Shown here: positions 1 to 3,800 of the stretch, one piece after another
Position numbering within the stretch: the stretch's first letter is position 1
Layout: each line of letters starts with the position of its first letter
Origin: Natronoarchaeum philippinense
GTDB lineage: Archaea; Halobacteriota; Halobacteria; Halobacteriales; Natronoarchaeaceae
DNA: 64,000 nt
Reading direction: 5' to 3'
Assembly: GCF_900215575.1 (NCBI RefSeq)
Contig: NZ_OBEJ01000005.1
Location: 62,001-126,000, forward strand
Position numbers and translations under genes: made by a program
Notes under the pieces: generated by a model
Told to the model about the DNA's origin: nothing
What the model saw: the letters and a program-made list of their open reading frames with translations, nothing else
The model's database searches: none

Positions 1-671
1 GTCGCGTCGGCGTCCTCGTCGAGCGTCTCGTCGGGTGCGACGGCCGCCCGCAGCTCGTCCATCGAGTTCACGTCGTAGTAGCCGTACAGCGCTTGGGTCA
101 ACCGCTCGCGCACTTCGCGGGCGTGTTCCTTGGGCGCCTTGATACGCTGCTGGCGGCCGTCGACTTCCAGCACGATCTGGGTGGCGACGCTGCCCTCCTC
201 GAAGGTGAGATCGGTCACGTCGTCGTAGTGGAACTCCTCGTAGTCCTCGTCCCAGACGACTTCGCCGATGTGCTTGACCAGTCGCTCGCTGGTGATGACC
301 AGCGTCAGCTCGCTGAAGCGGTAGGTCTTGACGACCGTTTCGCCGGGGTCGGTGACGCCGCCGGCGTTCATGATCCCCGCCAGCACCGGGTGGAGCGCCC
401 GCTCGGCGCTGTTCGAGGGCAGGGTGAACTCCTTGGTCCCGTCGAGTGGGTACTCCAGGCTAAAGCGCGTCTTGCGGCGTCCCTCCTTGACGGTCAGTCG
501 CTCGGCCTCGTGAGGGTACTCCTCGACCGTCTCGTCGCTCAACAGCCCTTCGGCCCGGTAGATCAGCGTTCGCGTCGGCGTGATGTACAGCACGTCCTCG
601 CCACCGAGTGCCACTTCCGCGGCGACCGTCTCGCCGTCGAGTGTCGATTCGACTACACCGGGTACGCTCAT
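1..671 (-). CDS. Haloarchaeal DUF7115-like protein (C-terminus cut off)
   Basis: The reading frame starts with ATG at 671 (MSVPGVVESTLDGETVAAEV) and runs open through 223 codons to the left edge, so the C-terminus is missing. The visible part has two similar beta-rich halves, each with a stretch like TPTRTLIYRAEG or ITSERLVKHIGEVVW; this looks like tandem PH-like or GRAM-like folds. No membrane segment or catalytic motif is visible. I recognise it as a conserved protein of haloarchaea, probably the family called DUF7115, with unknown function. It points away from tRNA-Met. Confidence 0.8.
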   Translation of the reverse strand, partial: MSVPGVVESTLDGETVAAEVALGGEDVLYITPTRTLIYRAEGLLSDETVEEYPHEAERLTVKEGRRKTRFSLEYPLDGTKEFTLPSNSAERALHPVLAGIMNAGGVTDPGETVVKTYRFSELTLVITSERLVKHIGEVVWDEDYEEFHYDDVTDLTFEEGSVATQIVLEVDGRQQRIKAPKEHAREVRERLTQALYGYYDVNSMDELRAAVAPDETLDEDADA

Positions 672-767
672 GCACCATTCTTTTTCCCCCATAGCTTAAA
701 ACCGCGGGCCGTTCGACACGGGTTCGTTCGGGCGAGACTCACACGCTCGCCCGCCGGAGATGAGAAG

Positions 768-774
768 CTTAAAG
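768..774 (+). promoter_or_regulatory. TATA box of tRNA-Met
   Basis: CTTAAAG preceded by a GAAG BRE-like stretch lies 27-33 nt before the tRNA 5' end at 801, the usual archaeal spacing. Confidence 0.6.
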
Positions 775-800
775 GTAATCACCGGACAACTCCGAGTCGA

Positions 801-952
801 GCCCGGGTGGCTTAGCTGGACATAGCGCCGCACTCATAGGGTTCTGAGCTTCGGTGCGGCTCGCCTTGGAAGCCTCTCATGTCCGTACGAGGACTGCCGA
901 GCCTCGAACCTGGGACATGCGGAGATCGAGGGTTCGGAGCCCTCCCCGGGCA
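801..952 (+). tRNA. Elongator tRNA-Met (CAT) with a 78-nt intron
   Basis: Acceptor arms GCCCGGG (801-807) and CCCGGGC (945-951) pair perfectly and A952 is the discriminator base. The anticodon stem is CCGCA (828-832) with TGCGG (918-922), and the anticodon CAT is 835-837. An intron of about 839-916 interrupts the loop after position 37, as is known for haloarchaeal elongator tRNA-Met, where the bulge-helix-bulge endonuclease removes it. The T arm is GAGGG/CCCTC around a loop TTCGGAG, which places G rather than the usual A at position 58. CCA is not encoded. Confidence 0.93.
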
Positions 953-1085
953 CTTTCTCACACACGTCGCGAACCTCGTGTGAGCGACAGCTCCGTGAGA
1001 AAGTGCTCGGAACGCTCCGAACCCGCAGGCTCTCGTGAGTGAGCGATGCGAACGAACGAGAGTACGGGAGAGCTGTGCTCTCCCG
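950..1085 (+). other. Array of four consecutive hairpins after tRNA-Met
   Basis: Immediately after the tRNA come four inverted repeats in series. A 12-bp stem joins 950-961 to 995-1006 (GCACTTTCTCAC/GTGAGAAAGTGC) and encloses an inner CACACG/CGTGTG stem (961-966/977-982). Next are TCGGA/TCCGA (1007-1011/1016-1020), CTCTCGT/ACGAGAG (1030-1036/1056-1062), and a 9-bp stem CGGGAGAGC/GCTCTCCCG with a 3-nt loop (1065-1085). The first arm uses the last three bases of the tRNA gene. No convincing ORF covers it. It could be a structured RNA, a processed trailer or a terminator; the pairing is seen directly, any function is inference. Confidence 0.5.
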
Positions 1086-1174
1086 GAAGTTCGCGAGCCC
1101 TCCCAAGCTCACCTCACCATCGCTCTCTGCCTCGCACCTAGGTATTTCAGTATCACCGCCCAGAGTACGATCCG

Positions 1175-2260
1175 ATGACAGAACAGGACGCGGTCCGGCT
1201 CGGCGTCGTCGGGCTCGGATTTATGGGACAGACGCACGCGACAAACGCCGAGGAGCTCGGCCACGAGGTCGTCGCCGGAACCGACCTCGACCCCGACGCC
1301 CGCGAGGCGTTCGCAGCGACGTACGACGCGGCGACCTACGAGGACGTCGACGAGATGTACGACGCCGAGGCGTTAGACGCCGTCGCCGTCTCGACGCCGA
1401 ACGCCTACCACGAGTCGGCGGCCGTCGGCGCGCTCGAACGCGACATCGACGTGCTCTGCGAGAAGCCGCTGGCCGATACGCTCGACAGCGCCGAGCGGAT
1501 CGCCGCCGCCGCAGACGACTCGGACGGGTTTTGCGCCGTCAACTTCCACAATCGGTTCTCGCCCGCCGCGGAGATGTTCACCGGCTACCAGTCCGAAGGA
1601 CGCTTCGGCAAGATCAGCCACGTTCGGGCGAACTACGTCCGCAGCCGTGGCATCCCCGGCGTCGGCTCGTGGTTCACCGACGAGTCCGTCTCCGGCGGGG
1701 GCGCCGTCGTCGACATCGGCGTCCACGCCATCGACTTCGCGCTGTATCTCATGGGCTATCCCCGCGTCGAGGAGGTGTTCGCGGTCACGCGGAGCCAGTT
1801 CGGCGACCGCGAGGACTACGTCGATCCCGGTGACTGGTACGACGAGACCGAGGACGCCGTCTTCGACGTCGAGGACTCCGCGACGGCGACGATCCGCTGT
1901 GCCGACGACCGGACGATCTCGCTGGAGGTCGCGTGGGCCGCAAACGAGCCCGAGTCACAGGAAGTCGTCGCCCGCGGCACCGACGCCGGTGCGCGGCTCG
2001 AACTCGGCGGCGACGAGCTGACCGTCTTCGACGCGGGCCGTGCGGGCACCGACCATCTCCGCGAGTCGACGATGTCCGGCGCGTCGCTGGACCACGCCGG
2101 CTGGGAGGGGTCGGCAAAGCAGTTCCTCGACGCCGTCGGCGGCGAGGCGCCGCCGCTGAACACCGTCGACGAGGCCCTGACCGTCCAGCGCGTGATCGAC
2201 GCCATCTACCGATCGGCCGACTCGGGCTCTTGTGTCTCGGTCGCTCCCGACCGAGCGTAG
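1175..2260 (+). CDS. Gfo/Idh/MocA family NAD(P)-dependent oxidoreductase
   Basis: 361 residues. The N-terminal Rossmann fold opens with the dinucleotide motif GVVGLGFMG (residues about 9-17). CEKPLAD supplies the conserved EKP of the family near residue 93, and GGGAVVDIGVHAIDF in the second half has the histidine normally near the active site. These enzymes oxidise or reduce sugars, inositols or related polyols with NAD(P); the substrate cannot be read here. A TATA-like GGTATTTCAG lies about 30 nt upstream. It precedes a decayed aldo/keto reductase, so the pair may once have acted together on a carbohydrate. Confidence 0.9.
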   Translation: MTEQDAVRLGVVGLGFMGQTHATNAEELGHEVVAGTDLDPDAREAFAATYDAATYEDVDEMYDAEALDAVAVSTPNAYHESAAVGALERDIDVLCEKPLADTLDSAERIAAAADDSDGFCAVNFHNRFSPAAEMFTGYQSEGRFGKISHVRANYVRSRGIPGVGSWFTDESVSGGGAVVDIGVHAIDFALYLMGYPRVEEVFAVTRSQFGDREDYVDPGDWYDETEDAVFDVEDSATATIRCADDRTISLEVAWAANEPESQEVVARGTDAGARLELGGDELTVFDAGRAGTDHLRESTMSGASLDHAGWEGSAKQFLDAVGGEAPPLNTVDEALTVQRVIDAIYRSADSGSCVSVAPDRA

Positions 2261-2311
2261 GCCGATTTCCGGCAGACGGACGTTTTTGCACCCGGTCGTG
2301 CAACCATCGGT

Positions 2312-2740
2312 ATGGAGTACACCACGCTGGGATCGACCGGGATGGATGTCAGCCGGATCTGTCTGGGCTGTATGAGCTTCGGATCGAGCGACTGGCGCGA
2401 GTAGGTCCTCGACGAGGACGAAAGCCGCGAGATAATCGAGCGCGCGATCGATCTGGGCGAGAACGAGGAGTATCTCTACGAGCATCCCTACCGCGAGGGT
2501 GGCGGCCCCGAAATCAACGAGCGCGTCGCCGAACTCGCCGCCGAGAAAGGCGTCACGATGGCCCAGATCGCGCTGGCGTGGCTGCTCCACAAGGACTGGG
2601 TCGACGCGCCGATCGTCGGCACCACGAGCGTCGAGCACCTCGAAGACGCCGTCGAAGCGCTCTCGATCTCGCTGTCCGAGGGCGATATGGCGTATCTCGA
2701 AGAGCCCTACGAGCCGGTGCGCGTGTCGGGTCACGAGTAG
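2312..2740 (+). pseudogene. Aldo/keto reductase remnant with in-frame stop and internal deletion
   Basis: The N-terminus MEYTTLGSTGMDVSRICLGC is typical of aldo/keto reductases. TAG at 2402-2404 replaces codon 31, where homologues usually have Trp, so one base change would explain it. After 18 more sense codons the sequence jumps from the early RAIDLG region to ENEEYLYEHPYREG near the C-terminus; the barrel centre with catalytic Asp, Tyr, Lys and His is gone. The C-terminal part (ALAWLLHKDWVDAPIVG) remains in the same frame to the stop at 2740. Only 143 codons remain of about 320-330. Internal starts could give a 60-residue peptide, but no functional enzyme. Confidence 0.9.
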
Positions 2741-2819
2741 CGACCGGGCTGTCCCGCCTACGCATTACAGGCGTACGGCCGACACCACTCCTTTCACTGC
2801 TGGCGTCGTACAGGCGTGA

Positions 2820-3800
2820 GTGAGCGACTCCAGATCCCCTCCCGGAACCGAGGGTGTGATGTACTGGCTGCTCCTGTCGGGGAACCGACTTCTGTTGGCT
2901 GCGGGCGTCGTCGCGGTGATCACGGCGGCGACGCTGGCGATCCTGTGGACGTTCGGCGTCGCGGCCGTCTTACCTCGGAGTCCGATGAACTTCGTGTACA
3001 GCTCGCTGCTTACGGGCAACCTGACACTGCTGACGGTCGTGCTTTCGATCAACCAACTCGTCCTATCGCGGGAGCTGGGCGATCCGGGGACGCTCAGACA
3101 GCGCGTCGATGCGACGCTCAATTTCCGGTCGGAGGTCGAGGAGACCACTGCGGCGAGCGTGACGCCCAAATCGCCCGGGGCGTTCCTCCGGCACCTCCAC
3201 GAGAGCGTCGCCGACGAGGTCGACGCCGTCGAGGAGATGCTGCACGATGTTGACGACGCCGACGCCGACCGACGGCTCAGTTCCGTGACCGACTCTCTGC
3301 GGCGCGACATCCGGCGAGTCAATCGGACGCTCGACGACGAGGCCGACTCCATCTTCGCCGTCATCGGCGCGACGCTGTCGACGACCCACGCGGAGCAATT
3401 AAACGACATCGAACGGGTGCGGGCGGGTTGTGACGACTCGCTGCCCGATACGTTGCCGGTGCGCTTGGAGCGTATCAGGGACGCGCTGCTCCAGATCGAT
3501 GTCGCCCGCAACTACTTCCGGACGATCTACGTCCAGAAGGAACTTGCCTACCTCTCTCGGGTGCTCCTGTACGTCGGTGTCCCCGCGATAGCGGCCAGCG
3601 GGCTCTCCCTGCTGGTGTACAACGCCGGCTATGTCACTCCCGCCTCGGCGTCGCTGTACGCCGCGCTCGTCGCCGTTACGGTTCCTCTGGGATTCGCGCC
3701 GCTGGCGATCCTTTTTGCCTTCGTCCTTCGGCTCTCGTGGATCGCACAGCGGACGTCTGCGATCCCACCGTTCTCCGCGGACACCGACTACCGCCCCTGA
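2820..3800 (+). CDS. Haloarchaeal four-TM membrane protein
   Basis: 326 residues starting with GTG (MSDSRSPPGTEG). Two hydrophobic segments lie at about residues 23-45 and 60-80, a helical cytosolic-looking domain of about 150 residues follows, and two more segments occur near 240-262 and 275-300. The middle domain has several Glu/Asp/Arg heptads and may form a coiled coil. The architecture resembles uncharacterised haloarchaeal membrane proteins; no enzyme motif is visible. It stands alone, converging on the cysteine-rich gene at 3890. Confidence 0.75.
   Translation: MSDSRSPPGTEGVMYWLLLSGNRLLLAAGVVAVITAATLAILWTFGVAAVLPRSPMNFVYSSLLTGNLTLLTVVLSINQLVLSRELGDPGTLRQRVDATLNFRSEVEETTAASVTPKSPGAFLRHLHESVADEVDAVEEMLHDVDDADADRRLSSVTDSLRRDIRRVNRTLDDEADSIFAVIGATLSTTHAEQLNDIERVRAGCDDSLPDTLPVRLERIRDALLQIDVARNYFRTIYVQKELAYLSRVLLYVGVPAIAASGLSLLVYNAGYVTPASASLYAALVAVTVPLGFAPLAILFAFVLRLSWIAQRTSAIPPFSADTDYRP

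Follow-up and report, generated by a model that had tools for sequence, protein, structure and literature searches.

The elongator tRNA-Met gene (anticodon CAU; 801–952, forward strand) of Natronoarchaeum philippinense is directly followed by a run of hairpins, raising the question of whether this DNA encodes a structured trailer RNA, as a preliminary description had suggested, or something else. All coordinates given without a locus name refer to the window, the 64-kb stretch of the genome that was analysed. ARAGORN, run with introns, placed a 78-nt intron at 839–916 in the gene, and the acceptor arms GCCCGGG and CCCGGGC were read off the sequence. Four hairpins lie where they had been described: 950–961/995–1006 (a perfect 12 bp), 1007–1011/1016–1020, 1030–1036/1056–1062 and 1065–1073/1077–1085 (TGT loop). 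The first arm does contain the end of the tRNA, but takes in seven of its bases rather than the last three, since the stem extends over 16 bp (946–961/995–1010; inverted repeat I1, 16 nt, 94% complementary). Its left arm (946–961) comprises the tRNA end and a segment termed the X arm, and its right arm (995–1010) is termed the X′ arm. An inner stem is present between them as described, but the family consensus, obtained by alignment with other loci, places this inner hairpin, K (966–988; GTCGC-GA-AC-CTCGT-GT-GA-GCGAC), on a stem at 966–970/984–988 with tandem G-A mismatches.

The remainder of the unit contains copies of the tRNA's own 3′ end. The copied piece, T, is 20 nt long and spans tRNA positions 54–73 (933–952), with limits taken from 34 modules of the class described below. 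A degraded inverted copy of it, T′, lies on the reverse strand (1004–1021) and overlaps the 1007–1020 stem; it was delimited by inverted repeats I1 and I2 and by the covariation of T′ with T2 in 40 modules. Next come a linker (CCCGCAGG, 1022–1029), which reads CCCGTAGG or CCCGGTGG in relatives when 33 tRNA-Met modules are aligned; hairpin h1 (1030–1062), recognized by sequence and folding, with a 7-bp stem and the cap T-GA-GC-GAT-GC-GA-A; and hairpin h2 (1065–1085; inverted repeat I11), with a 9-bp stem and a 3-nt loop. The preliminary description had closed the structure at 1085; the hairpins do end there, but the unit goes on to approximately 1110 and closes with T2 (TTCGCGAGCCCTCCCAAGCTC, 1090–1110), a direct, worn copy of the 3′ end of the tRNA that shares an exact direct repeat with the gene (937–946/1095–1104) and scores 25 at 136–151 past the tRNA-Met end, a match equalled in 1 of 200 shuffles.

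The 940–1100 segment folds at −84.0 kcal/mol, compared with a mean of −56.4 (s.d. 4.3) for shuffled sequences (z = −6.5; 0 of 200 as good), and as single-stranded DNA the 940–1110 segment gives z-scores of −5.3 (top strand) and −4.3 (bottom strand). A fold that leaves out the tRNA end (957–1140) is less exceptional (z = −2.65), because hairpin 1 uses the tRNA's own 3′ end. The region indeed falls outside named RNA families, with no Rfam match at E ≤ 1 in window positions 1–3000 (rtT, RF00391, included). That no ORF covers it, also claimed earlier, is literally incorrect, as mechanical reading frames overlap the hairpins, although none of these frames was shown to be a gene. The next gene 3′ of the unit encodes a GFO/IDH/MocA oxidoreductase. 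Farther downstream, an aldo/keto-reductase-like frame (2312–2740) is apparently broken (in-frame TAG at approximately 2403, middle missing) and is a possible pseudogene.

A class of modules behind haloarchaeal tRNAs

A DNA search of the source genome with the window unit, itself a worn copy, returned weak matches only, and the class was exposed by subsequently matching each tRNA to its own trailer. Two other loci retrieved by DNA matching (L014 and L015) were discarded, as their hairpins are generic and no tRNA was called there. Among the 46 tRNAs of N. philippinense (45 Rfam matches plus tRNA-Met), the tRNA's own 3′ end recurs within 300 nt downstream in 28 (0 of 200 shuffles for each), and 27 tRNAs exceed the 95th percentile of tRNA-swapped controls, which used the trailers of other tRNAs. 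Most of these cases have a trailer hairpin, a T′ (for example, GGATTTGAACCACGC) and a hairpin between T and T2.

Each module consists of a trailer hairpin, T′ (the inverted tRNA 3′ end), one or two hairpins and T2 (the direct copy of positions 54–73). Modules are approximately 100–200 bases long, can stack in tandem and are apparently non-coding, no gene having been recognized in the units. At tRNA-Met loci, some of which hold two units, the X and X′ arms flank an inner hairpin (consensus GTCACGAACGnAGTGAGTGAC), and the inverted tRNA end, the linker CCCGTAGG, h1, h2 and a direct GGTTCGGAGCCCTCCCCGGGCA copy follow in that order. Across the 34 modules used to set its limits, the copy starts at T54 or a few bases earlier, ends exactly at base 73 in half of them and is exact over 20 of 20 nt in 16, giving a duplicated piece of 20–21 bp. 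The acceptor half of T2 lies mostly outside the predicted stem, yet it stays identical to the tRNA; pairing therefore does not explain that identity.

In DNA searches, tRNA-Met proved to be followed by this region in further genera, both of the family and of the order. A copy lies within 330 nt at 22 of 46 tRNA-Met loci in family f7, 4/9 in f1, 2/15 in f17, 2/7 in f12, 1/1 in f6, 1/2 in f10 and 0/11 in f5, counts that come from best-matching loci and are not unbiased rates. In the sister species (G001), 18 of 30 tRNAs have their own 3′ end copied downstream. A stricter rule, an ungapped 16/20 match, retained 22/46 tRNAs in N. philippinense and 13/30 in the sister species, and gave 9/30, one of them a tandem tRNA-Asp pair, in a genome of f5 (G253), the family with no copy among its sampled tRNA-Met loci. 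In these three genomes, the share of examined tRNA genes that carry module DNA ranges from approximately one-third to 60%, and modules occur in many genera of one archaeal class. Among named genomes, a scan with the T′ pattern matched Halorhabdus, Natronococcus, Natrinema, Natrialba, Halobacterium, Natribaculum, Natronorubrum, Salinadaptatus, Halomicrococcus, Halosimplex, Salinibaculum, Halopiger, Haloarcula and others. Every haloarchaeal match examined sits behind a tRNA with a T2 copy, which measures the association of T′ with T2 and not its frequency, as the matches were chosen by T′. Among approximately 103 tRNAs of other genomes and viral contigs we found one case, in a Nitrospira metagenome-assembled genome, where the 3′ end of a tRNA-Asp (L205, 5499–5577, reverse strand) reappears in identical form approximately 180 nt downstream; it is the only case seen outside haloarchaea. 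Seven of eight apparent matches among the control loci, with T copies, turned out to be haloarchaeal and were set aside. The hairpin observation is thus confirmed and its reach greatly widened: the hairpins are not peculiar to tRNA-Met and belong to a class found behind many tRNAs.

Differences in units between genomes and similar units at different tRNAs

Four locus pairs differ by one or two extra modules placed exactly between the tRNA and the shared flank, that is, next to the tRNA. The tRNA-Met loci L039 and L056, with closely similar flanks, differ by one unit of approximately 153 bp; compared with N. philippinense, the sister species has two extra units behind tRNA-Ser(tga), and the two genomes also differ by one unit behind tRNA-Phe; and comparison of L042/L445 with L079/L446 shows a unit between the tRNA and the same downstream DNA (91%). 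Module presence differs between N. philippinense and the sister species at nine tRNAs. These are differences between genomes in which either state may be the ancestral one, and some may be precise deletions between the 20-bp repeats.

Similar units, 79–95% identical, occur behind different tRNAs (for example, Lys/Ser/Val and Leu(taa)/Gly(ccc)), each unit carrying the 3′ end of the tRNA that it follows. When one unit was used as a BLAST query against its own genome, all matches at E ≤ 1e-10 lay behind tRNAs, and one 24-nt match (E = 3.5e-4) lay away from the listed tRNAs. Interiors can also be inverted: a tRNA-Ile hairpin scores 100 inverted and 19 direct between N. philippinense and the sister species, and h1 of L056 scores 42 inverted against 19 relative to L039. 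Two N. philippinense loci called as tRNA-Pro(cgg) and tRNA-Arg(acg) (contig C4, 60900–60979, and contig C2, 782996–783094) have an identical 3′ end and modules 95% alike, and one of these tRNAs may be misread or captured. At the tRNA-Met locus L038 (G139), the two tandem modules hardly differ, which indicates that arrays also expand through copying of neighbours.

We consider it rather likely that the modules are mobile palindromic DNA cassettes added directly 3′ of tRNA genes in Halobacteria, of which the window unit would be one decayed copy. The units might instead be scars of integrative elements, viruses or plasmids that integrated in tRNA 3′ ends by means of tyrosine integrases (IntSNJ2-type and others) and whose internal deletions left hairpin-bearing att sites between T copies. 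Archaeal integrases do target tRNA genes, preferring the 3′ end (PMC8371274), a given stretch of downstream DNA can come after T1 in one genome and after T2 in another, and a tyrosine integrase at locus L018 has module-like DNA and T copies as neighbours. However, units that are short, uniform in design, covarying and recurrent behind different tRNAs are unexpected of random deletion scars, the pattern scan of viral contigs with 50% GC or more revealed no T′ motif accompanied by a T2, and none of the 13 Phage_integrase loci in N. philippinense is linked to a module, so that we regard the scar explanation as unlikely. The last result counts against mobility as well; the only Phage_integrase locus near an exact tRNA end, that of tRNA-Val(cac), has no module.

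Other candidate enzymes were sought in the same genome (approximately 96% complete), which has no PF01867 (Cas1) match and a single Y1 transposase frame, holding a stop. In genome G005, module-like hairpins and two copies of a 3′ end belonging to another tRNA (TTCGAATTCGCGCCGGCCCA) adjoin a frame for a tyrosine integrase (L018, 314–1600; L447, 7776 and 7902), with no tRNA called in the surrounding 14 kb; this locus is the best lead to an enzyme. The DNA past the unit in G340 was considered as a provirus end and rejected, its first two frames having no Pfam match and being followed by a histidine kinase and a DUF3179 protein.

DNA or RNA pairing

Strong folding, covarying arms, a position directly after tRNAs and the lack of an annotated family are what would be expected if the 3′ extension of the pre-tRNA folded into four hairpins that are released as a small RNA or control tRNA 3′ processing. 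Compensatory changes across related genomes, the comparison proposed in the preliminary description, are indeed present: X and X′ arms pair better with each other than with swapped arms (33 loci with 28 distinct arm starts; 0 of 10,000 permutations), and the same preference holds for T′ and the T2 of its own module (40 modules; 0 of 10,000 permutations), indicating that pairing is maintained. This own-versus-swapped test was used in place of RNAalifold, whose signal on the tRNA-Met alignment is weak (−13 kcal/mol) because the arms differ in sequence and length.

The mismatches that the stems accept separate the two kinds of pairing. The tRNA stems of two genomes contain 36 G-T and 1 A-C mismatches, whereas module stems contain 4 and 5 under strict detection and 35 and 25, 58 and 54, or 44 and 43 under relaxed detection (module versus tRNA stems, Fisher p = 5e-4 and 9e-8); detection is biased to perfect stems but makes no distinction between G-T and A-C. 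Because RNA pairing would favour G-U, whereas G-T is here as rare as A-C, the palindromes look maintained as DNA, not RNA. A cap motif (tandem GA/GA, two base pairs and mostly a GNA loop) occurs 20 times on the tRNA-sense strand and 3 times on the other, and the bias to the tRNA-sense strand by folding energy is modest (29 of 46 modules, p = 0.016). One of the extraordinarily stable DNA hairpins is GCGNAGC, but tandem GA/GA and GNA loops are stable in RNA too, which counts against reading the cap as DNA. Short DNA hairpins of extraordinary stability have been described (PMC10527192), and the motif supports DNA hairpins, short of proving a single-stranded intermediate.

Further observations weaken the structured-RNA reading: the identity of the mostly unpaired acceptor half of T2 to the tRNA, the presence or absence of units between sister species, and the occurrence of modules as precise extra units with a 20-nt tRNA-end copy behind many tRNAs. 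At the tRNA-Met locus L046 (G391), moreover, the left arm of one variant is joined to the right arm of another in a recombinant between units, and the two arms do not pair. Together with the absence of wobble tolerance, this makes a trailer RNA quite unlikely; strong folding and covariation beside a tRNA need not mean RNA, and a simple comparison of G-T with A-C mismatches split the readings. Alternating T, T′ and T2, near-perfect stems and inverted interiors are as expected if, with no dedicated mobility, template switching at palindromes and gene conversion among tRNA trailers made the inverted and direct tRNA-end copies, but on its own this leaves unexplained the fixed ends near positions 54 and 73, the whole extra units beside the tRNA and the recurrence of K and h types at unrelated tRNAs and in many genera, and we judge it quite unlikely as well.

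A possible mechanism and related systems

tRNA ends appear to be sites of repeated addition of small hairpin DNAs. If the modules are mobile cassettes, insertion at the tRNA end would duplicate the 20-nt T and leave the tRNA intact. A recombinase or transposase provided in trans would use the hairpins as its DNA substrate, probably in a folded, single-stranded state. Selection on that folded form, or template-switch correction, could preserve the complementarity of T′ and T2. Two schemes would fit the 20-nt duplication, Campbell-type recombination with a crossover in the T-loop and a casposase/Cas1-like insertion that duplicates its target; the latter would better explain why a unit behind a new tRNA bears that tRNA's end. 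A circular or single-stranded intermediate is hypothetical in either case. More tentatively, tRNA genes might anchor an integron- or CRISPR-like array, in which a recombinase would add folded single-stranded hairpin cassettes beside the tRNA, duplicating positions 54–73 each time, and cassettes would pass between tRNAs and take on the end of each new host. Mobility of the modules would imply an uncharacterized tRNA-targeting recombination system to be found, with arrays that are small and easy to test.

No prior description of the units was found in a literature search of incomplete coverage, and several known systems resemble them in part. The rtT repeats behind E. coli tyrT are tandem units of similar length bearing part of the tRNA 3′ end; they are known from one locus in enterobacteria and described as a transcript, whereas modules occur behind many tRNAs across a class. 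IntSNJ2 of the pleolipovirus SNJ2 targets the tRNA 3′ end (PMC8371274), where the modules also lie, but has a 14-nt att site without a stem-loop and belongs to an integrase-encoding virus of kilobases, whereas the piece duplicated in modules is 20 nt long. Haloarchaeal MITEs, PATEs and small mobile repeats (Haloquadratum) are, in the passages of PMC3119063 that treat them, mostly non-coding and mobilized in trans or by unknown means; according to the same passages, PATEs have near-terminal palindromes and are IS605-related, small mobile repeats make no target duplication, unlike modules, and none of the three is tied there to tRNA ends.

Insertion at the 3′ end of a tRNA gene, leaving direct repeats, is known from casposons and Cas1-type integrases and is what we propose for the modules. 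TCAAATC, which the A. boonei casposase reads while making a 14–15-bp duplication (PMC6614799), is part of the T-loop sequence in modules. The modules differ in their 20–21-bp duplication with limits at 54–73 and in holding no protein genes, and N. philippinense has no Cas1 match. In CRISPR adaptation, new units enter beside the leader; in the four locus pairs, the extra modules lie next to the tRNA. Integron cassettes are small units added in order at one site, as modules might be, whereas modules have no recognized gene or linked integrase, sit at tRNA genes and come with a duplicated 20-nt piece of the tRNA. The attC site recombined by IntI forms an imperfect inverted repeat with AAC and GTT at its boundaries (PMC2727003); correspondingly, T′ in modules often ends in GAAC and T2 starts with GTTC, with exceptions such as GAAG and GAAT. 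The hairpin formed by T′, h and T2 resembles attC, and strand-asymmetric unpaired bases are common to both.
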